A stretch of 41,670 nt of DNA from Segeticoccus rhizosphaerae (GTDB lineage Bacteria; Actinomycetota; Actinomycetes; Actinomycetales; Dermatophilaceae). Made by a program: the position numbers and the translations under genes. The notes beneath the pieces are model-generated. The model was not told the DNA's origin and searched no databases. It saw only the letters and a list, made by a program, of their open reading frames with translations. This document shows, piece by piece, positions 22,620-38,703 of this stretch (its first letter is position 1; each line of letters opens with the position of its first letter). The DNA lies in contig NZ_VOHR01000004.1 of assembly GCF_009192725.1 (NCBI RefSeq), positions 1 through 41,670 on the forward strand, in the 5' to 3' direction.

Positions 22620-23741
22620 GTGACCGCGAACCGCTCGACCGGCAAGGGCCGGACCACCGCGGCTCCCGTGCTGCGGCTGGCCGTGATCCGCGGGGACGGC
22701 ATCGGCCCGGAGCTGGTCGACAGTGCCCTTCGGGTGCTGTCGGCCGCGACCGCCCGCACGGGTGACGACCTGGCCGTGACCGAAGAGCCCGGGGGTGCCG
22801 AGGTCTACCGCGCCACCGGCGCTGCTCTAGACCCGGGCACTCTCGAGCGGCTGCGCACCGACTACGACGCCATTCTCAAGGGACCCGTCGGCCTGCCCGA
22901 GGTCCGCAAACCGGACGGCACGGAGGCGGGTCTGCTCGGCGGAATCCTGCGCACCGGCCTCGACACCTACGCCAACGTGCGGCCCATCCGCCTGCTGCCG
23001 GGCGTGCAAGCCCCTGTCCGGCGCGCGCCAGGCGAGATCGACTACGTCATCGTCCGGGAGAACACCGAAGGCCTCTACCTGTCCCGCGGGCTGGGCGTGG
23101 TGACACCGAGTGCGGTGGCGGACCAGCTCATGGTGACCCGCGAAGGATGCACCCGGGTCGCCCGGTTCGCCTTCGAGCTCGCCCGATCCCGCCGGGGCGC
23201 TCCGGTCGATGGGGTTCGGCGGGTCACCTGCGTGGACAAGAGCAACGTGCTGCGCAGCTACGCGTTCTTCCGGAAGATCTTCGACGAAGTCGGCGAGGCC
23301 TACCCCGACATCGAGCGTGACTACCGCTACGCCGACGCGGCCGGGCACGACCTGGTCGCCCACCCGGAGCTCTTCGATGTGGTGCTGACCGAGAACTTCC
23401 TGGGCGACCTGCTCAGCGACGTCGGTGCCGCCACCGTCGGGGGGCTGGGCATGTGCCCGTCCGGCAACATCGGTGACGACGCGTCCTACTTCGAACCGAT
23501 CCACGGCTCTGCCCCGACCATTGCCGGGCAGGACCGCGCCAACCCCGTCTCGCAGATCCTGTCGGCCGCGATGATGCTGCGCCACTGCGCCCGGCACAAC
23601 GCCGCCCGGCTCATCGAGGACGCCCTGACCGCAGTGCTCGAGTCCGGTGACGTCCGGGTGCGGGCCGACGGCTCGCCGCAGGCTGGGACCAGCCACTTCA
23701 CCGAAGCCCTGATCACACACCTACCGAAGGAAGAACCATGA
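22620..23741 (+). CDS. Isocitrate/isopropylmalate dehydrogenase-family oxidative decarboxylase
   Basis: 373 residues from GTG 22620. Family landmarks: IRGDGIGPELVDSALRVL at 23-40, substrate-binding RTGLDTYANVRPIRL near 112-126, catalytic Tyr in RENTEGLYLSRG near 147, catalytic Lys in VDKSNVLRS near 202, metal-binding Asp residues in TENFLGDLLSD near 257, and EPIHGSAPTIAGQDRANP at the NAD site. The family oxidatively decarboxylates (2R,3S)-2-hydroxy acids such as isocitrate, 3-isopropylmalate, tartrate or D-malate. Which one is not readable. Its stop overlaps the tcuA-like start by ATGA, suggesting that it acts on the same tricarboxylate pathway rather than in leucine synthesis. Confidence 0.88.
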   Translation: MTANRSTGKGRTTAAPVLRLAVIRGDGIGPELVDSALRVLSAATARTGDDLAVTEEPGGAEVYRATGAALDPGTLERLRTDYDAILKGPVGLPEVRKPDGTEAGLLGGILRTGLDTYANVRPIRLLPGVQAPVRRAPGEIDYVIVRENTEGLYLSRGLGVVTPSAVADQLMVTREGCTRVARFAFELARSRRGAPVDGVRRVTCVDKSNVLRSYAFFRKIFDEVGEAYPDIERDYRYADAAGHDLVAHPELFDVVLTENFLGDLLSDVGAATVGGLGMCPSGNIGDDASYFEPIHGSAPTIAGQDRANPVSQILSAAMMLRHCARHNAARLIEDALTAVLESGDVRVRADGSPQAGTSHFTEALITHLPKEEP

Positions 23742-25192
23742 TCGATGTCATCGTCGTCGGCAGTGGCAACGCCGGCTTCGCCGCCGCCCACGCCGCCGCG
23801 ACCCGCGGTCGGCAGGTCGTCCTGCTGGAGAAGGCTGACCAGGCCAATGCGTTCGGCAACAGCTACTACACCGCCGGCGCCACACGGATCGCGCACCAAG
23901 GGCTGCCGGAACTGCTCGACGTCGTCGACCCGGACGACCGGCACGCGGTCACCGAGGTGCCGGCCTACTCGCCCGAGGAGTATGCCGCGGACCTCGCCAA
24001 GGTGACCGAGGGACGCAACGACCCAGCGCTGACCGAGGTGCTGGTGCACGAGTCCGGTCCGACGCTGCGCTGGCTGCACTCGCTCGGCCTGCGCTTCCGG
24101 CTCATGTACGAGCGGCAGTCCTACCGGAGGGCGGACGGCAGCTACCTGTTCTGGGGCGGCCTGCACGTCGGCAACACCGGAGGAGGCGAGGGTCTGATGG
24201 CCGACCACTTCCGCGTCGCCCAGCAGCTCGGGGTCGACGTCCGCTTCTCCACCCCGGTCACGGAGCTTCTGGTCGAGGACGGCACCGTCGCGGGCGTCGT
24301 CGTGGATCACGGGACGGATCGCCAGGAACTCCGGGCGGAGTCGGTCATCCTCGCCGCGGGCGGTTTCGAAGCCAACCCGGAAGCGCGCGCCGAGCACCTC
24401 GGCGCCGACTGGGCTCACGCCAAGGTCCGGGGCACGCCCCACAACACCGGAGACCTCATCGCGGCCGCACTCGCGATCGGCGCCCAGCGCGGCGGCGACT
24501 GGTCGAGCTGCCACAGCGTGCAGTGGGATGCGTTCACGCCACAGAACGAGAGCAACCGAGAGTTGACGAATCGGCTGACCAGGCAGAGCTATCCGATCGG
24601 CATCATCGTCAACCGAGACGGCCGGCGGTTCGTCGACGAGGGCGCCGACTTCCGCAACTACACCTACGCGAAGTACGGCCGCGACGTGCTTGCCCAGCCC
24701 GGTGCCGTCGCCCACCAGATCTTCGACGCCAAGCTGCGTCCGATGTTGCGGGCCGAGGAATACGAGATGCCCGGGGTTTCCGTCGTCGAGGCGGACTCCG
24801 TGGCCGAGCTGGCACGGGCCGCGGGGATCGACCCGGACGGGCTGGAACACACCATCACGGAATTCAACGCCGCGATCGACGACGACAAGCCGTTCGACCC
24901 CAACGTCAAGGACGGTCGCCGGTCCGACGTCGTGCCGCCCAAGAGCAACTGGGCGGCCATGATCGAAACACCGCCGTTCTATGCCTACGGCGTGACGTGT
25001 GGGATCACCTTCACCTTCGGCGGCGTGAAGACCGACACGCGCGGCCGGGTGCTCGGCAAGGACGGCGATCCCATTCCCGGTCTGTTCGCGGCAGGCGAGA
25101 TGCTCGGCGGTCTGTTCAGTGGCAACTATCCGGGAGGCTCGGGCCTCGCGGCAGGCGCGGTATTCGGACGCCGGGCTGGCGCTTTGGCCTGA
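23738..25192 (+). CDS. tcuA: TcuA-like FAD-dependent tricarballylate dehydrogenase
   Basis: 484 residues. FAD-binding Rossmann motif IVVGSGNAGFAAAHAAATRG at 5-24, with Glu of VLLEKAD at about 32. A succinate dehydrogenase/fumarate reductase-type flavoprotein fold follows (GGLHVGNTGGGEGLMADHFR, VILAAGGFEANPEARAEHLG, GVTCGITFTFGGVKTD, and GLFAAGEMLGGLFSGNYPGG at the C-terminal FAD site). It matches the overall pattern of TcuA, which oxidises tricarballylate to cis-aconitate. Coupled to the dehydrogenase by ATGA. With a PrpF isomerase and Tct importer across the divergent promoter, a tricarballylate or aconitate route is plausible. No TcuB electron-transfer partner is visible in the window. Confidence 0.85.
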   Translation: MIDVIVVGSGNAGFAAAHAAATRGRQVVLLEKADQANAFGNSYYTAGATRIAHQGLPELLDVVDPDDRHAVTEVPAYSPEEYAADLAKVTEGRNDPALTEVLVHESGPTLRWLHSLGLRFRLMYERQSYRRADGSYLFWGGLHVGNTGGGEGLMADHFRVAQQLGVDVRFSTPVTELLVEDGTVAGVVVDHGTDRQELRAESVILAAGGFEANPEARAEHLGADWAHAKVRGTPHNTGDLIAAALAIGAQRGGDWSSCHSVQWDAFTPQNESNRELTNRLTRQSYPIGIIVNRDGRRFVDEGADFRNYTYAKYGRDVLAQPGAVAHQIFDAKLRPMLRAEEYEMPGVSVVEADSVAELARAAGIDPDGLEHTITEFNAAIDDDKPFDPNVKDGRRSDVVPPKSNWAAMIETPPFYAYGVTCGITFTFGGVKTDTRGRVLGKDGDPIPGLFAAGEMLGGLFSGNYPGGSGLAAGAVFGRRAGALA

Positions 25193-25570: not shown

Positions 25571-26839
25571 TCAGGCCCACGACGGTCTTCGGGCCAGTTG
25601 CAGTTGGCTGACGCCGAGGTAGTCGCTGCGGAATCCCGCCTCGCAGTAGGCCAGGTAGAACTCCCACATCCGACGGAACGTCTCGTCGAAACCCTGCCCT
25701 CGCACCTGTGGCCACTGCTGCCGGAACTGCTCGCGCCACAGGGCCAGCGTCCGCGCGTAGTGCGGCCCAAGCTCTCGGCGGCCCTCGACCCGCAGCGTGG
25801 TGTGCGACCGCAGGGTCTGCTCGATCGCCGGCAGGGACGGGATCAGTCCACCGGGGAAGATGTACTTCTGGATCCATCCGTAGCTGTGCCGGGTCGCGAG
25901 CAGACGGTCGTGGGCCATCGTGATGGTCTGGATGCTGGCCGTCCCGCCGGGAGCGAGCAGCCGATCCACAGCGGACAGATAGGTGGCCCAGTAGGCCTCC
26001 CCCACTGCCTCGATCATCTCGATGCTGACGATGGCGTCGTAGCTCCCGTGGACCTCGCGGTAGTCCGTCAGCGCGATGTCGACGCGGTCGGCGACCCCCG
26101 CCGCCCGGGCCCGCTCCAGCGCGAGATCGCGTTGCTCCGCCGACAAGGTGATCGACGTGACGTTGGCGCCGCGCTTCGCGGCGCGAACCGCCAGCGATCC
26201 CCAGCCGGTGCCGATCTCCAGCAGCCGGGTGCCCGGGCCCACGCGCGACAGGTCGAGCATGGCGTCGAGCTTGAGCAGCTGCGCCCGCTCGAGCAGAGCA
26301 CGATCGTCGGCCTCCCCCAGGTGTGCATCGTTGTCGAACAACGCGCAGGAGTAGGTCATCGTGGGGTCGAGGAACGCGGCGAACAGCTCGTTGCTCAGGT
26401 CGTAGTGGGCAGCGATGTTGCTGCGCGAACCCGAAAGGGTGTTGTCCTGGTCCTGCGGCAGGCGCCGGTCCACCAGCGCCCGCAACCGTTGCAGCGGAGG
26501 CGCAACCAGGCTCGTGAGCCTGGCCGCGAACGGCGTCAGCAGGTTTGCCAGGTCGGTGCCCTCACCCGCCTTCCAGTCGCCGGCCATGTAGGACTCGCCG
26601 AACCCGATCTTGGTGTCACGTCCCAGCCGGGCGAAGAAGGCGCCCGGCCGCACCAGCTCGAGCACCGGCGCGCCCGGGGAGTCGTCGCCACGACTGCTCC
26701 CATCGGGGTAGTCGACGCGGACCGGGACCATCCGGATCGCGCGCTCGAAGACGAGTCGGGCAACGGTCGCGCTCACCGGAGCCGAAGGCGTCGTGAAGAC
26801 GCTGGGTGACGTCGTAACGGTCGATGCCGTCATGGTCAT
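25571..26839 (-). CDS. Cyclopropane-fatty-acyl-phospholipid synthase family methyltransferase
   Basis: 422 residues, the usual length. N-terminal lipid-binding domain with IGFGESYMAGDWKAGEGTDL at 78-97, then a SAM-dependent methyltransferase: AHYDLSNELFAAFLD at 144-158, MTYSCALF at 161-168, SAM loop LLEIGTGWGSLAVRAA at 206-221, and IVSIEMIEAVGE near 270. It transfers a methyl group from SAM to a phospholipid double bond, giving a cyclopropane or methyl(ene)-branched chain. Coupled by ATGA to DUF1365. The trio COG2907-DUF1365-CFA-like is a recurrent set in light- and singlet-oxygen-responsive loci of other bacteria, where related enzymes modify unsaturated fatty acids. Confidence 0.92.
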   Translation of the reverse strand: MTMTASTVTTSPSVFTTPSAPVSATVARLVFERAIRMVPVRVDYPDGSSRGDDSPGAPVLELVRPGAFFARLGRDTKIGFGESYMAGDWKAGEGTDLANLLTPFAARLTSLVAPPLQRLRALVDRRLPQDQDNTLSGSRSNIAAHYDLSNELFAAFLDPTMTYSCALFDNDAHLGEADDRALLERAQLLKLDAMLDLSRVGPGTRLLEIGTGWGSLAVRAAKRGANVTSITLSAEQRDLALERARAAGVADRVDIALTDYREVHGSYDAIVSIEMIEAVGEAYWATYLSAVDRLLAPGGTASIQTITMAHDRLLATRHSYGWIQKYIFPGGLIPSLPAIEQTLRSHTTLRVEGRRELGPHYARTLALWREQFRQQWPQVRGQGFDETFRRMWEFYLAYCEAGFRSDYLGVSQLQLARRPSWA

Positions 26840-27648
26840 ACCCCTTCCTGGGGGTGCTGTGGGGGTCGAGGCTGGATGGGGAGACGGCGCAGCCAGAGCC
26901 GTATGCCGTGGATCCGGATGAGTGCCGAAACACGTTGCGGCATCAACGGATACCGCAAGGCGTAACGGACCAGGGCGGGGCCGCTGGCGGCCTCGGGCCG
27001 ACCTGCGAACGCTGCGCTGAAGACGTTTGCTCCGTCTCGGTGCAGCGCCACCGAGACCGCCACCCGGTCGTGGCTCAATGTGAACCGAAGCCGATAGGAA
27101 CCGGTGACGTCGAAGAACGGGGAGACGTAGAAGGCCTTGTCGGTGGTGGCACGCCCGTCACGGTCGGGGCGCAACAGGTAGGCGTGGCGCTCCCCATAGG
27201 TGTTGTGCACCTCCGCCACGACGCAGGCCAGGTCGCCCTCGCCGGTGAAGCACCAGTGGACCGTCAACGGGTCGAAGACGTGTCCCAGCACCCGCGCATT
27301 GGCGAGCATCAGGATGCGGCTTCCCGCGCCGAGGTCGACTCCCTCGACGGCGAGGAATCGTTCCACCTTGGCCTTGATCGTCAGCGTGTCGTCGCCGTCG
27401 TGCGCGCCGAAGTGGTCGTCGTGGTCGAACCGCGCGAGCGCTCGCAGGTACCAGGGTTGCCGTGGCACGTCGTCCAGGTCGACGAGCCACTGGTAGACGC
27501 GGCTGCGGAAGGAGTAGCGGACCGCTCCGAACCGGTGGTGGGTCAACCGGCCACCGACCAGGGCAGGCAGGTCCGGCAAGGCCGTCAGGCCCGGGACGCT
27601 CGCGGAGTCGGCGGTCGAGGGCCCTTGCGCAGCCTCCGGCCCGCTCAC
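26836..27648 (-). CDS. DUF1365 domain protein
   Basis: 270 residues from GTG 27648, which shares GTGA with the stop of the FAD oxidoreductase gene; the frame open behind it is antisense noise. The DUF1365 hallmarks run in order: GRLTHHRFGAVRYSFRSRVY near 30-49, DLDDVPRQPWYLRALARFDH, LANARVLGHVFDPLTVHWCF near 118-137, AEVHNTYGERHAYLL, and a terminal RLWLRRLPIQPRPPQH. No activity is established for the family. It nearly always sits between COG2907-type oxidoreductase and CFA synthase-like genes, so a shared step in fatty-acid modification is likely. Confidence 0.9.
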   Translation of the reverse strand: MSGPEAAQGPSTADSASVPGLTALPDLPALVGGRLTHHRFGAVRYSFRSRVYQWLVDLDDVPRQPWYLRALARFDHDDHFGAHDGDDTLTIKAKVERFLAVEGVDLGAGSRILMLANARVLGHVFDPLTVHWCFTGEGDLACVVAEVHNTYGERHAYLLRPDRDGRATTDKAFYVSPFFDVTGSYRLRFTLSHDRVAVSVALHRDGANVFSAAFAGRPEAASGPALVRYALRYPLMPQRVSALIRIHGIRLWLRRLPIQPRPPQHPQEGV

Positions 27649-28949
27649 CAGTCCACCCCGAAGTGCCGGGCGGCCGCGACACCGGAGCGGCAACCGTCCT
27701 CGTGGAAGCCCCAGCCGTGGTAGGCGCCCGCGTAGGCCGTGCGCTCGGTCGCCAGCTCGGGCAGCCGGGCCTGGGCGCGAAGTGACTCGGGGGTGTAGAT
27801 CGGGTGCTCGTAGGTCATCTGCGCGAGCACCAACTCCGATGCGACCCGACCCGGGTCGTTCAGGGTGACCAGGTACTGGTCCGCTGCCTCCAGCCCCTGC
27901 AGCCGGTTCATCCAGTACGACACGACGGGGGGTTCGTCCGGCGTGGTGCAGCCGCTCATCCGGTAGTTCCAGGAGGCCCGGGCACGGGGTGACCGCGGCA
28001 ACACCGAGGCGTCGGTGTGCAGGACGGTCTCGTTGCGGGAGTAGGCGAACTGCTTCAGCGTGGTGACCTCCGCGTCGCTCGGGTCGGTCAACAGCGCCAG
28101 CGCCTGGTCCGCATGGGCCGCGAGGACGACGCGGTCGACCCGGGTGACCCGGCCGGTGACGTCCCGCAGGTCGACCCCGTCGGCGTGGCGGGTGACGTCG
28201 GTCACCGCGTGTGCCCGGCGCACGTCGACGAGGCGGTCGGCCAGCCGCTCGACGTACACGTTCGACCCGCCGACGACGGTGTACCACTGGGGAGAGCCGG
28301 TCACCGCCAGCATCCCGTGGTGGTCCAGGAACTCGAAGAGGTAGCGCGCGGGATAGACCAGCGAGATCTCCCGGCCCGACGACCACACGCAGGAGACCAG
28401 CGGCACCGCGTAGTGCGCGATGAAATGGTCGGTGAACCCCTCGGCCGCCAACCACTCGCCATACGTGCCCAGGTCGTCGCCGCTGCTGCGCAGGAAGGTC
28501 GCTGCACGACGGTGGAACCGGCGCACCTGCGCCAACAGGCGCAGGAACCGCGGGTCCAGGACGCGTCCCGGTTGGGCGAGGATCCCGCCGGCGCCGCGGC
28601 CACCGGCATACTCCAGCTCGCACCCGTCGCAGCGGATGCTCATGCTCATCTCGGTCGGTCGCACCTGCACGTCGAGCTCCGCGAAGAGCTTGCGCAGCCA
28701 CGGGTAGGTGACGTCGTTGTGCACGATGAAGCCACTGTCAACCGCGTGCTCGGCGCCGCGCGCGTCACGCACTTCGTGGGTGTGCGCGTGTCCACCCAGA
28801 CGAGGCTCGGCCTCGAACAGCACCACCTCATACCGCCGGGACAGCAGGTGGGCCGCGGTCAGCCCGGAGACGCCCGCTCCCACCACGGCGACCGAACCGC
28901 GAGATCCGCCCTCGGCTCGCGCCTGCGATGGGTGCGCACGTGTACTCAT
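27645..28949 (-). CDS. FAD-dependent oxidoreductase, COG2907-type
   Basis: 434 residues. FAD-binding VAVVGAGVSGLTAAHLLSRR at 20-39 with the acidic end of strand 2 in VLFEAEPRLGGHAHTHEV, then VDSGFIVHNDVTYPWLRKLF near 71-90, typical of COG2907 amine-oxidase-like flavoproteins. Start ATG 28949 has GAGGAGA four bases upstream. First gene of the three-gene lipid operon; its promoter carries four tandem 11-bp repeats. In other bacteria homologues act with CFA-like and DUF1365 proteins on membrane fatty acids (known association, exact reaction unproven here). Confidence 0.9.
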   Translation of the reverse strand: MSTRAHPSQARAEGGSRGSVAVVGAGVSGLTAAHLLSRRYEVVLFEAEPRLGGHAHTHEVRDARGAEHAVDSGFIVHNDVTYPWLRKLFAELDVQVRPTEMSMSIRCDGCELEYAGGRGAGGILAQPGRVLDPRFLRLLAQVRRFHRRAATFLRSSGDDLGTYGEWLAAEGFTDHFIAHYAVPLVSCVWSSGREISLVYPARYLFEFLDHHGMLAVTGSPQWYTVVGGSNVYVERLADRLVDVRRAHAVTDVTRHADGVDLRDVTGRVTRVDRVVLAAHADQALALLTDPSDAEVTTLKQFAYSRNETVLHTDASVLPRSPRARASWNYRMSGCTTPDEPPVVSYWMNRLQGLEAADQYLVTLNDPGRVASELVLAQMTYEHPIYTPESLRAQARLPELATERTAYAGAYHGWGFHEDGCRSGVAAARHFGVDW

Positions 28950-29014: not shown

Positions 29015-29044
29015 AGGTTAGGGACACTGTTGAAGGTATGTCAA
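29015..29044 (-). promoter_or_regulatory. Promoter of COG2907-DUF1365-CFA operon
   Basis: On the minus strand a perfect TTGACA (29044-29039), 18-base spacer and TAACCT (29020-29015) read toward the oxidoreductase start at 28949. The -35 hexamer is itself part of one of the four 11-bp repeats (TTGACATACCT), so a bound repressor would cover it. Confidence 0.6.
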
Positions 29045-29066
29045 ATGTATGTATAATATCTGTATA
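29023..29066. promoter_or_regulatory. Four tandem 11-bp repeats, CarH/LitR-type operator
   Basis: Plus-strand units in exact register: GACACTGTTGA (29023), AGGTATGTCAA (29034), ATGTATGTATA (29045), ATATCTGTATA (29056). Each has TGT at positions 6-8 and A at position 11, so on the minus strand each reads T-N2-ACA. The array covers the -35 elements of both divergent promoters and the plus-strand -10. Known CarH proteins bind tandem 11-bp direct repeats across the -35 region as a B12-dependent tetramer and let go in light. Confidence 0.75.
29030..29057 (+). promoter_or_regulatory. Promoter of MerR remnant
   Basis: TTGAAG (29030-29035), 16-base spacer and a perfect TATAAT (29052-29057) read toward the MerR-like remnant whose ATG is at 29075. 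The promoter lies wholly inside the 11-bp repeat array, as expected for an autoregulated MerR/CarH gene. Its good condition contrasts with the broken coding region. Confidence 0.6.
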
Positions 29067-29074
29067 GCGCCTTC

Positions 29075-29390
29075 ATGAGTTCTTCGGACCGGGAGCGGCC
29101 TGCGGATTGGGGCGCGGAGCAGCCGCGTCGGGCTCTCCAGCCACACCCCGCGCGAGTGGGAGAGCGCGGGGGTGAGCGCGTGGGAGAGCAGGTATGGCGT
29201 GCTGGACCCGACGCGGTCAGCCGGCGGTACCGGCTCTACTCACCCGGCGACGAGGCGCGCATCGAGCGGATGAAGGGGCTCATGGCCGAGGGCCTCGCGC
29301 CGCCCAGGCGGCCGAGGCACTGGCCGGTCGCAGCACGTCGGCCCTGGCCGGTGCGGGCGCGGTCCGTGCCTGCGAGGTCAGCCGGGCAGC
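29075..29390 (+). pseudogene. Decayed MerR/LitR-type regulator gene
   Basis: MerR HTH homology is spread over three frames. The ATG at 29075 opens in one frame (MSSSDRERPADW). The next reads RIGARSSRVGLSSHTPREWE then SRYGVLDPTRSAGG (29103-29223). A third gives RYRLYSPGDEARIERMKGLM plus AEGLAP (29225-29302), and the last AQAAEALAGRS (from about 29302). An exact 10-base repeat GTGGGAGAGC 24 bases apart adds eight codons inside the WE-RYG motif, and the usual Leu of HTLR is Pro. No B12-binding domain follows; homology stops near the convergent GAF-ANTAR gene. Either a true pseudogene or a stretch with several sequence errors. Confidence 0.75.
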
Positions 29391-30118
29391 TGGTCGTGGT
29401 GGCCGGAGAGGACCTTCTCGGCGACCTCGGCCAGCTTGAGGTTCAAATCCATCGAGGTCCGCCGCAGGATCTCGAAGGCAGCGGCGTCGTCAATCCGATG
29501 GTGGGCCATGAGCAGCCCGATCGCCTTGCCGATCTCCCGGTTGGACTCCAGGCCCTGGCGCAGCTCCTGCGCCTCTTGCCCCTGCTCGGCCGCATTCAGC
29601 GCCACCGAGCAGAAGGCGGCCAGCACGGAACCCTGGTGGACGGCAGCGTCGGTGAACCCTCCCGCACGGTCGGTGAAGAGGTTCAGTGCACCCAGCTTGC
29701 GGCCACCGGGCACGGCGATCTGGAACCCCAGCATGCCCCGCACCGGAGTGGTCGCCAGCACTCGGGCACGCAACGTCGGCCAGGGCACATCCGGGTCGGT
29801 CAGGTCGGGGGCCAATCGTGGCTTGTCGTCCACCAGCGCATCCACGCAAGGACCGGCGTGGACTTCCTGTTCGAGCTGCTCCACCATCCGCGCGACCGAG
29901 TCCGTGGCCGCGGGGCTGGCCAGCTCTCCTTCGGGCGAGCGGGTCATGACACTGGCGTGGTCACAGCCGGGGACCAGCACCACGGCCGCTGCACAGATCG
30001 CCTGATGGGCGTGGTCGAACTCCGGCCCGTGGTAGAGCATCTGCCCCAGAGCGATGAACACCTCGCCGGGGTCGGCCGTACCATCGGAACCTGCCGTTTG
30101 TGGCACGTCATTCTCCAT
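29378..30118 (-). CDS. GAF-ANTAR regulator
   Basis: 246 residues from ATG 30118; the frame open to 30535 is spurious. A GAF sensor domain spans about 20-165 (ALGQMLYHGPEFDHAHQAIC, then PGGRKLGALNLFTDRAGGFT), followed by a C-terminal ANTAR domain at about 178-236 (NREIGKAIGLLMAHHRIDDA, then FEILRRTSMDLNLKLAEVAE), which binds dual-hexaloop RNA hairpins to prevent transcription termination. GAF-ANTAR proteins are abundant in Actinomycetota, often stress- or light-linked. Its stop lies over the tail of the MerR remnant. RNA target and signal are unknown. No clear promoter motif seen. Confidence 0.9.
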   Translation of the reverse strand: MENDVPQTAGSDGTADPGEVFIALGQMLYHGPEFDHAHQAICAAAVVLVPGCDHASVMTRSPEGELASPAATDSVARMVEQLEQEVHAGPCVDALVDDKPRLAPDLTDPDVPWPTLRARVLATTPVRGMLGFQIAVPGGRKLGALNLFTDRAGGFTDAAVHQGSVLAAFCSVALNAAEQGQEAQELRQGLESNREIGKAIGLLMAHHRIDDAAAFEILRRTSMDLNLKLAEVAEKVLSGHHDQLPG

Positions 30119-30198
30119 CGCCTGTCGAGTCTTCCATGTGTACCCGATCCGTGACCACAGTCTGGACCTTCTGGTCGCCGTGATCCGGAACGGCCCGG

Positions 30199-36896: not shown

Positions 36897-36929
36897 TAGA
36901 CAGTCTAGGGATTATCTAAAGATTGTCTA
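36897..36929. promoter_or_regulatory. Three tandem 11-bp repeats over the MMPL promoter
   Basis: Minus-strand units in register: TAGACAATCTT (36929), TAGATAATCCC (36918), TAGACTGTCTA (36907). All begin TAGA and keep the T-N2-AC/TA pattern seen in the four-unit array at 29023-29066. A promoter TAGACA-N16-TAGACT lies inside it. The innermost unit is also a dyad (TAGAC-T-GTCTA). Interpreted as a CarH/LitR-type operator; a dyad-binding repressor is the alternative. Confidence 0.6.
36902..36929 (-). promoter_or_regulatory. Promoter of MMPL-SRPBCC-SDR-FAD-TspO-TIGR01777 operon
   Basis: TAGACA (36929-36924), 16-base spacer and TAGACT (36907-36902), with the ATG at 36893 only eight bases after the -10 element, implying a leaderless or nearly leaderless transcript. 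Confidence 0.45.
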
Positions 36930-37013: not shown

Positions 37014-38396
37014 TCACGCCCCGACGCCCTGATATCGCCGCAGCGCCTCCCGGCGCTCCTCGGCGTGGTCGACCAGGCGCCTCGGGTAGTCGTGTGCGTA
37101 GCCGTCCGGCGCCCTCCAGGGACGATGGACCGCCGAGCCAGCCAGGTGGCGCAGTTCGGGCACCCAACGGCGCACGTAGTCGCCGTCGGGATCGAAGCGC
37201 TCGCCCTGGGCCGTCGGGTTGAAGACCCGGAAGTAGGGTGCGGCATCCGTGCCTGTCCCGGCCACCCACTGCCACCCGTGGTTGTTGGACGCCAGGTCAC
37301 CATCGATGAGGTGCTGCAGGAAGTGGCGGGCTCCCACCGGCCACCACACGTGCAGATCCTTGGTCAGGAAGCTCGCGGTCACCATGCGGAGCCGATTGTG
37401 CATCCAACCCGTCTCGAGCAGCTGGCGCATGCCGGCATCGACCAGCGGGTAGCCCGTGCGTCCCGCCTGCCAGGCGTGGATCGCGTCCCGCGGCTCGTCA
37501 TAGCGCAGCCCGGAGAGTGACTCGCGCAGATCCGTCCAGGCCGAGCTGGGGTGGTGCCACAGCACGTCCGCGTAGAACTCGCGCCACGCGAGCTCGGTGA
37601 CGAATCGCTCAGCGTTGCCACCGTGCTGTGCCAGACGTGGTGCAAGGTCCGCCAGGAGAGTGCGCGGGTGGACGACACCCAGCTTGAGATAGGGCGACAG
37701 TCGCGACGTCCCCTCCCGGTCCGGTCGGTCCCGGTCGACGTCGTATGCCGCAAGGCCAGTCGCGAGGAACCGTTGCCACGTCTCCCGCGCGCCAGCCTCC
37801 CCCGGCACCGGGAGGCCGGCCGACTCGCTGCCGTTCGCCGCCTGATCCACCATGCGGACAGCCTCGAGGTCGTCGTCCACCTCGAGCCAGCGCGGAGTCG
37901 TCACGCGCTGCTCCGGGCGGGGCCAACCGTGCTCGCGCCAGGCCCGCGCGAAGGGAGTGAATACGCGATAGGGCTCGCCGTCGCCCTTGCGCACGCTGCC
38001 CGGGCCCACGGCATACGGCGTCCCTGTGGGCACCAGCTCCACGCCTCGTTCCGCCAAGGTTGTCGCCACCTGCCGGTCGCGCCGCCGACCGTAGGGAGTG
38101 GTCTCGCGCGAGATGTGGACCGAGCGGGCGCCGACGGCCGCCGCGAGCTTCGGGATGACCCTCCGGGGATCGCCGACGCGCAGGACCAGCCGCCCGTCGT
38201 AGGCCTCGTCCGTGGCCTTCAGTGTGGCCGCGAGCCAGGCTCGCCGGGGGCCGCCCGCCGACCGCCACAGGCGAGGATCGACGACGAAGACGGGCACCAC
38301 TCCCGCTGGCCCGGCCGCCCGGTGCGCGGCAGTGAGCGACGGCAGGTCCTGTCGCCGCAGGTCCCTCCGCAGCCACAGGATGCTGGCGTCTACCAT
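37014..38396 (-). CDS. phrB: Deoxyribodipyrimidine photolyase (class I)
   Basis: 460 residues from ATG 38396; the frame open to 38675 is spurious. N-terminal antenna domain (ILWLRRDLRRQDLPSLTAAH). The C-terminal FAD domain has near-canonical CPD-photolyase segments: ELAWREFYADVLWHHP, DAGMRQLLETGWMHNRLRMV, LIDGDLASNNHGWQWVAGTG then TDAAPYFRVFNP. It repairs UV-induced cyclobutane dimers using blue light. Its stop is about 120 bases upstream of the MMPL promoter region. Photolyase is the clearest light-linked gene here and supports a light-inducible reading of the cluster. Confidence 0.95.
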   Translation of the reverse strand: MVDASILWLRRDLRRQDLPSLTAAHRAAGPAGVVPVFVVDPRLWRSAGGPRRAWLAATLKATDEAYDGRLVLRVGDPRRVIPKLAAAVGARSVHISRETTPYGRRRDRQVATTLAERGVELVPTGTPYAVGPGSVRKGDGEPYRVFTPFARAWREHGWPRPEQRVTTPRWLEVDDDLEAVRMVDQAANGSESAGLPVPGEAGARETWQRFLATGLAAYDVDRDRPDREGTSRLSPYLKLGVVHPRTLLADLAPRLAQHGGNAERFVTELAWREFYADVLWHHPSSAWTDLRESLSGLRYDEPRDAIHAWQAGRTGYPLVDAGMRQLLETGWMHNRLRMVTASFLTKDLHVWWPVGARHFLQHLIDGDLASNNHGWQWVAGTGTDAAPYFRVFNPTAQGERFDPDGDYVRRWVPELRHLAGSAVHRPWRAPDGYAHDYPRRLVDHAEERREALRRYQGVGA

Positions 38397-38463
38397 CAGG
38401 CCACGCCACCGTGGAACGTCCCTGGGCGGGACCGAACTGGACGCATCGGGGTCCGTGCTCCGC

Positions 38464-38703
38464 TCAGTGGCGGCGGAGGCGGGGGTGGCGATGCTCCCAG
38501 CGCTGCAACGTGTCGCCGATGAGCCACAACGTGGGTGGCCACAGGCCCACGAACAGCGCCCGGCGCTCGGCGTTTCCGCGCTCTTCCTGGTCGACGGTCT
38601 TGGCGCGGATCCACAGACCGATACACAGTCCAACCGCTCCCAGCGACGCGACGTGCAGATGTGTGCTCCGCGCACCCAGCGTGTGCAATGTCTTGTCCAC
38701 CAT
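38464..38703 (-). CDS. Small hypothetical membrane protein upstream of photolyase
   Basis: 79 residues with two hydrophobic segments: about 17-33 (HVASLGAVGLCIGLWIR) and 49-65 (LFVGLWPPTLWLIGDTL). ATG 38703 has a GGGAGA ribosome binding site six bases upstream. I do not recognise the family; the layout resembles small membrane proteins seen near photolyase genes in other Actinomycetota (from memory). It reads in the same direction as the photolyase, 67 bases ahead of it, and probably shares its transcript. Confidence 0.65.
   Translation of the reverse strand: MVDKTLHTLGARSTHLHVASLGAVGLCIGLWIRAKTVDQEERGNAERRALFVGLWPPTLWLIGDTLQRWEHRHPRLRRH

Follow-up and report, generated by a model that had tools for sequence, protein, structure and literature searches.

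A four-unit CarH/LitR-type operator candidate over the predicted promoter of a putative ufaDOM lipid operon in Segeticoccus rhizosphaerae

The direct repeat of CarH operators is 5'-nnnnTnnACAn-3', and it lies over the -35 or -10 elements of promoters. Thermus CarH has three tandem units, and Bacillus megaterium CarH has four, or three plus a pseudorepeat (PMC9304148). CarH homologues are reported to be defined by a Wx9EH motif together with a B12 motif (PMC8156234). In Pseudomonas, the class II LitR proteins PplR and PmlR control phrB, a FAD oxidoreductase gene, and ufaM (PMC9758184). UfaM (a methylase) of Rhodobacter sphaeroides, together with UfaD (an NAD/FAD-binding desaturase) and UfaO (a DUF1365 protein), produces a methylated furan fatty acid; in R. 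palustris, the homologues of D, O, and M are RPA2571, RPA2570, and RPA2569, respectively (PMC7380195). Here, we describe a locus in a 41,670-nucleotide stretch of the S. rhizosphaerae genome (contig NZ_VOHR01000004.1; the window) that might bring these two kinds of system together.

The window contains a tandem array of four 11-bp direct repeats at 29023 to 29066 (minus strand), delineated from the sequence, the published repeat (PMC9304148), and chance tests. The 11-mers GACACTGTTGA, AGGTATGTCAA, ATGTATGTATA, and ATATCTGTATA start at 29023, 29034, 29045, and 29056, exactly where an earlier note on this DNA had placed four gapless units. Their minus-strand cores are TATACA (29066-29061), TATACA (29055-29050), TTGACA (29044-29039), and TCAACA (29033-29028). 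Read toward the lipid genes, the array is TATACA-n5-TATACA-n5-TTGACA-n5-TCAACA, with 11-bp spacing. All four units fit TnnACA perfectly, with 16 of 16 core bases intact, and the array therefore has the three or four tandem nnnnTnnACAn units of a CarH operator. In the published register it spans 29027-29070, from which the register of the earlier note is shifted by four bases. That note had also seen an overlap with TTGACA on the minus strand and TATAAT on the plus strand. Both are there, the first at 29044-29039 and the second inside the array at 29052-29057.

The TTGACA core of the third unit is also the -35 element of a promoter (29015-29044, minus strand) that we predict for the leftward lipid operon from the sequence and from relatives. 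The array would therefore overlap the -35 of its target, as CarH operators do. An 18-bp spacer follows, then the -10 element TAACCT (29020-29015), GAGGAGA, and the ATG at 28949. A TTGACA-N17/18-TAnnnT layout is common to several relatives, with the last repeat within the spacer. The operon has three genes, all on the minus strand. The first (27645-28949) encodes a FAD/NAD-binding amine-oxidase-type protein (Pfam Amino_oxidase and NAD_binding_8), which is a candidate UfaD by the published description (PMC7380195). The second (26836-27648) encodes a DUF1365 protein (PF07103, 218 bits) and is a candidate ufaO, because UfaO has this domain (PMC7380195). The third (25571-26839) encodes a CFA/CMAS-family S-adenosylmethionine methyltransferase (PF02353, 283 bits), a candidate UfaM. 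The GTG start of candidate ufaO overlaps the ufaD stop (GTGA), and the ATG of candidate ufaM overlaps the ufaO stop (ATGA). The earlier note had also placed lipid-modifying genes downstream. Genes for a FAD desaturase-like protein, a DUF1365 protein, and a CFA-type methyltransferase are thus together, as in ufaDOM. The families and their order are those of R. palustris D-O-M, and we therefore consider this a candidate ufaDOM operon. By analogy, its product would be a furan or methyl-branched fatty acid. Adjacent to the operon and convergent with it are genes for an isocitrate/isopropylmalate-type dehydrogenase and a FAD_binding_2 protein (22620-25192, plus strand).

A decayed carH/litR gene adjoins the array on its other side (29075-29361, plus strand), as found by tblastn of an intact CarH protein encoded elsewhere in the genome and by DNA alignment. 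The remnant has 82% DNA identity to the intact gene (gaps counted) up to about 29317. The alignment then jumps by about 557 bp, indicating a deletion, and continues at 91% identity to 29361. A 24-bp insertion near 29152-29175 and single-base indels disrupt the frame of the helix-turn-helix (HTH). Therefore, judged from its sequence, this copy is clearly a pseudogene, and a repressor acting at the array must be supplied in trans by the intact carH. A gene for a GAF-ANTAR protein, probably an RNA-binding antiterminator, is encoded at 29378-30121 (minus strand), and its 3' end abuts the remnant.

The intact carH is on another contig (C3, 7167-8072). It was assigned by Pfam, motifs, and PDB matches, and it supplies the MerR-type B12-binding protein on which the earlier note's proposal depended. 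The 302-aa product has a MerR HTH and B12-binding domains (Pfam MerR_1, B12-binding_2, and B12-binding, the last just below the cut-off). It also has Wx9EH (WEQGTATVAQEH, residue 153) and PPGELHD, which includes the ExH of the B12 motif, with PPGELH ending at His199. Its top PDB and structural matches are to Thermus CarH. Against the NCBIfam CarH equivalog it scored 162.6 bits, below the cut-off of 400, and so we file it in the CarH/LitR family as a diverged homologue rather than a strict equivalog. Next to the Trp is a Glu, whereas the corresponding residue of Thermus CarH is a His, a light-state ligand. Only two matches to the B12-binding helical domain were found in the assembly, the intact CarH and a 1237-aa open frame, which is the size of a methionine synthase. 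The genome also encodes a cobalamin adenosyltransferase.

The earlier note had likened the array to a CarH/LitR operator. The consensus fit, the carH gene, and the rarity and conservation described below support this, and in our judgment the array is very probably the operator of a class I (coenzyme-B12) CarH/LitR repressor, with dark repression, release by light, and the intact CarH acting in trans. In the dark, CarH loaded with adenosylcobalamin would occupy the four 11-bp repeats next to one another. It would cover the -35 of ufaD-ufaO-ufaM, and also the divergent carH promoter, blocking RNA polymerase. Light would break the Co-C bond, CarH would be released, and the lipid genes would be transcribed. 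With four perfect CarH-type units over the promoter of their operon, these membrane-lipid genes are probably silent in darkness and expressed in light. The promoter, the binding, the dark repression, and the light induction are all predictions. The repressor would come from the intact carH beside carotenoid genes, and one light sensor would then control both carotenoids and lipid modification. Counting against this proposal are the dead state of the adjacent carH, which leaves control to a protein whose gene is on another contig, and, for that protein, the score below the NCBIfam cut-off and the Glu in place of the Thermus His.

The intact carH is divergent from a PNPOx-family gene, which is followed by genes that we read as crtE, crtB, and crtI. 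These crt-like genes align with the crtE-crtB-crtI run of a relative (G106), in which a second carH adjoins crtE-crtB-crtI with two tandem units between. The C3 locus (L003:6515-10695) comprises the PNPOx and crt-like genes divergent from the intact carH and then an NmrA-like NAD-binding gene; a gene for a MerR-DICT regulator is farther away. The operator at the intact carH (TATACA, TTGCTA, TTGACA, and TCGACA) has three perfect units and one broken unit, and it is homologous to the intergenic region in the window. The homology extends from about the ufaD/PNPOx start codon into carH, and therefore one locus was copied from the other. A carH beside ufaD is common in relatives, and the NAD-binding gene found after the intact carH here also comes after the ufaD-side carH in Kribbella. 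Gene order alone thus suggests that, of the two sites, the one in the window probably came first.

These two loci bear on the main rival explanation, which is that the array is a relic. A once-functional CarH site would have been left behind when the neighboring carH died, and the lipid operon would now be constitutive or otherwise controlled. The pseudogene next to the array is what this explanation predicts. However, none of the 16 core bases has been lost in the window, compared with two in the array of the intact gene. This is a mild argument, but the assembly also retains an intact carH gene, which has a homologous operator of its own. We therefore regard a relic as unlikely.

To place the array among relatives, we used 80 named actinobacterial ufaD loci from an alignment of ufaD homologues. 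Fifteen have a divergent upstream carH/litR homologue within about 1.5 kb, some with a further small gene between. An operator was scored as two or more perfect TnnACA units in succession, at a spacing of 11, within 370 bp around the start. Tandem 11-bp units preceded the operon in 12 of the 15 loci with a carH homologue but in only 1 of the 65 without (Fisher P = 9.4e-11, which is only a guide because the loci share ancestry). The repeats are therefore conserved in relatives with a neighboring carH/litR, as the earlier note's reading would have it. Other spacings from 6 to 30 were found in at most 3 of the 15 loci, and those 3 are a weak 22-bp harmonic. The three exceptions among the 15 bear near-repeats (e.g., ACATTTGACAAACCTTTGACG). 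In Streptomyces and Amycolatopsis, many ufaD loci lack both the repeats and a carH close by, and so ufaD operons do not come with the operator as a rule. The repeat consensus from the 12 relatives is roughly ACCTTnnACAA/G. Ten relatives with the operator have a photolyase gene beyond ufaM in the same direction, and the window has a DNA photolyase gene at 37014-38675 (minus strand). This fits a role in light protection.

The repeats could instead serve a different regulator, of the MerR type or unrelated, that recognizes similar sequences. The genome does encode several further MerR-type HTH proteins, and the gene for one, the MerR-DICT regulator, shares contig C3 with the intact carH. However, exact 11-bp tandem TnnACA direct repeats are of the published CarH type (PMC9304148), and across relatives they track the presence of a carH/litR homologue. 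Therefore, we think a different regulator very unlikely.

The array is also rare. No run of four units occurred when the 125-bp intergenic stretch was shuffled by mononucleotide 200,000 times, or when its AT-rich 60-bp core was shuffled equally often; runs of three occurred once and three times, respectively. Nowhere else in the 4.4-Mb assembly are there at least three consecutive perfect units. When four units with up to three mismatches were allowed, the genome-wide runner-up was the site before the intact carH, with two. Gene context matters, because a scan of 188 family genomes for three perfect units returned many TCCACA/TGTGGACA-type matches resembling DnaA-box clusters, and the bare three-unit pattern is therefore unspecific without it. 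Chance AT-rich sequence with no regulatory role could be entertained because the stretch is about 30% GC compared with 69% in the window, but the 400,000 local shuffles without a four-unit run and the conservation at the same operon in relatives, a strong argument, make it hardly credible.

The earlier note had spoken of seven 11-mers. Four are those of the array. The other three might be the imperfect 11-bp units (TAGACA, TAGATA, and TAGACT) at 36902-36929 (minus strand), just upstream of an MMPL transporter gene. We rejected these as a second operator, because chance alone would give about 0.4 such sites in the window and orthologues have no such repeats. By their sequence, they are possibly a weak CarH-like site or a site of another regulator.

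A broader interpretation is possible, although we would put it at somewhat under an even chance. A B12 photoreceptor might directly control furan-type membrane lipids in these actinobacteria, and here, once the cis copy had decayed, the CarH of the carotenoid locus might have assumed control of the lipid operon in trans, so that two light-protection programs came under one sensor. The interest lies in an operator that outlived its neighboring regulator gene and in a likely B12/light link to furan-type lipids. The reach of a textbook-quality CarH operator would extend beyond carotenoid genes, to what is likely an actinobacterial furan-fatty-acid operon. The ACCTTnnACAA/G-type consensus, combined with gene context, could predict light regulons across this group.

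Parts of this picture are already known, namely, the CarH operators (PMC9304148) and the LOV-coupled class II LitR light control of a FAD-oxidoreductase/ufaM/photolyase cluster in Pseudomonas (PMC9758184). A B12-type CarH tied to an actinobacterial ufaDOM operon was not found in a literature search, which had most subscription journals outside its reach. The array is like the operators of Thermus thermophilus and B. megaterium, with nnnnTnnACAn over a -35 and four tandem units as in B. megaterium. However, those operators serve carotenoid-type targets (PMC9304148), whereas the array precedes a lipid operon and the adjacent carH is dead. The operon has three families in common with R. sphaeroides and R. 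palustris ufaM, ufaD, and ufaO, and its D-O-M order is like RPA2571-2570-2569; the match here is by family and order. In R. sphaeroides, a furan fatty acid builds up upon loss of chrR, whereas the product of the window operon is predicted. With Pseudomonas class II LitR, the shared theme is LitR/CarH-family control of a cluster that is induced by light and includes ufaM and genes for a FAD-dependent oxidoreductase and a photolyase. However, that LitR works with a short LOV protein, and its reported site is of the TGTACA-N12-GGTATA type with no 11-bp tandem (PMC9758184), whereas the regulator here has B12 motifs and the array is an 11-bp tandem. LitR-LitS of Streptomyces coelicolor is likewise a B12-based MerR-type light regulator system in an actinobacterium. 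In that system, LitR targets litS, a sigma factor gene, and through it crtE (PMC12705666), whereas here the repeats are directly on the enzyme operon.
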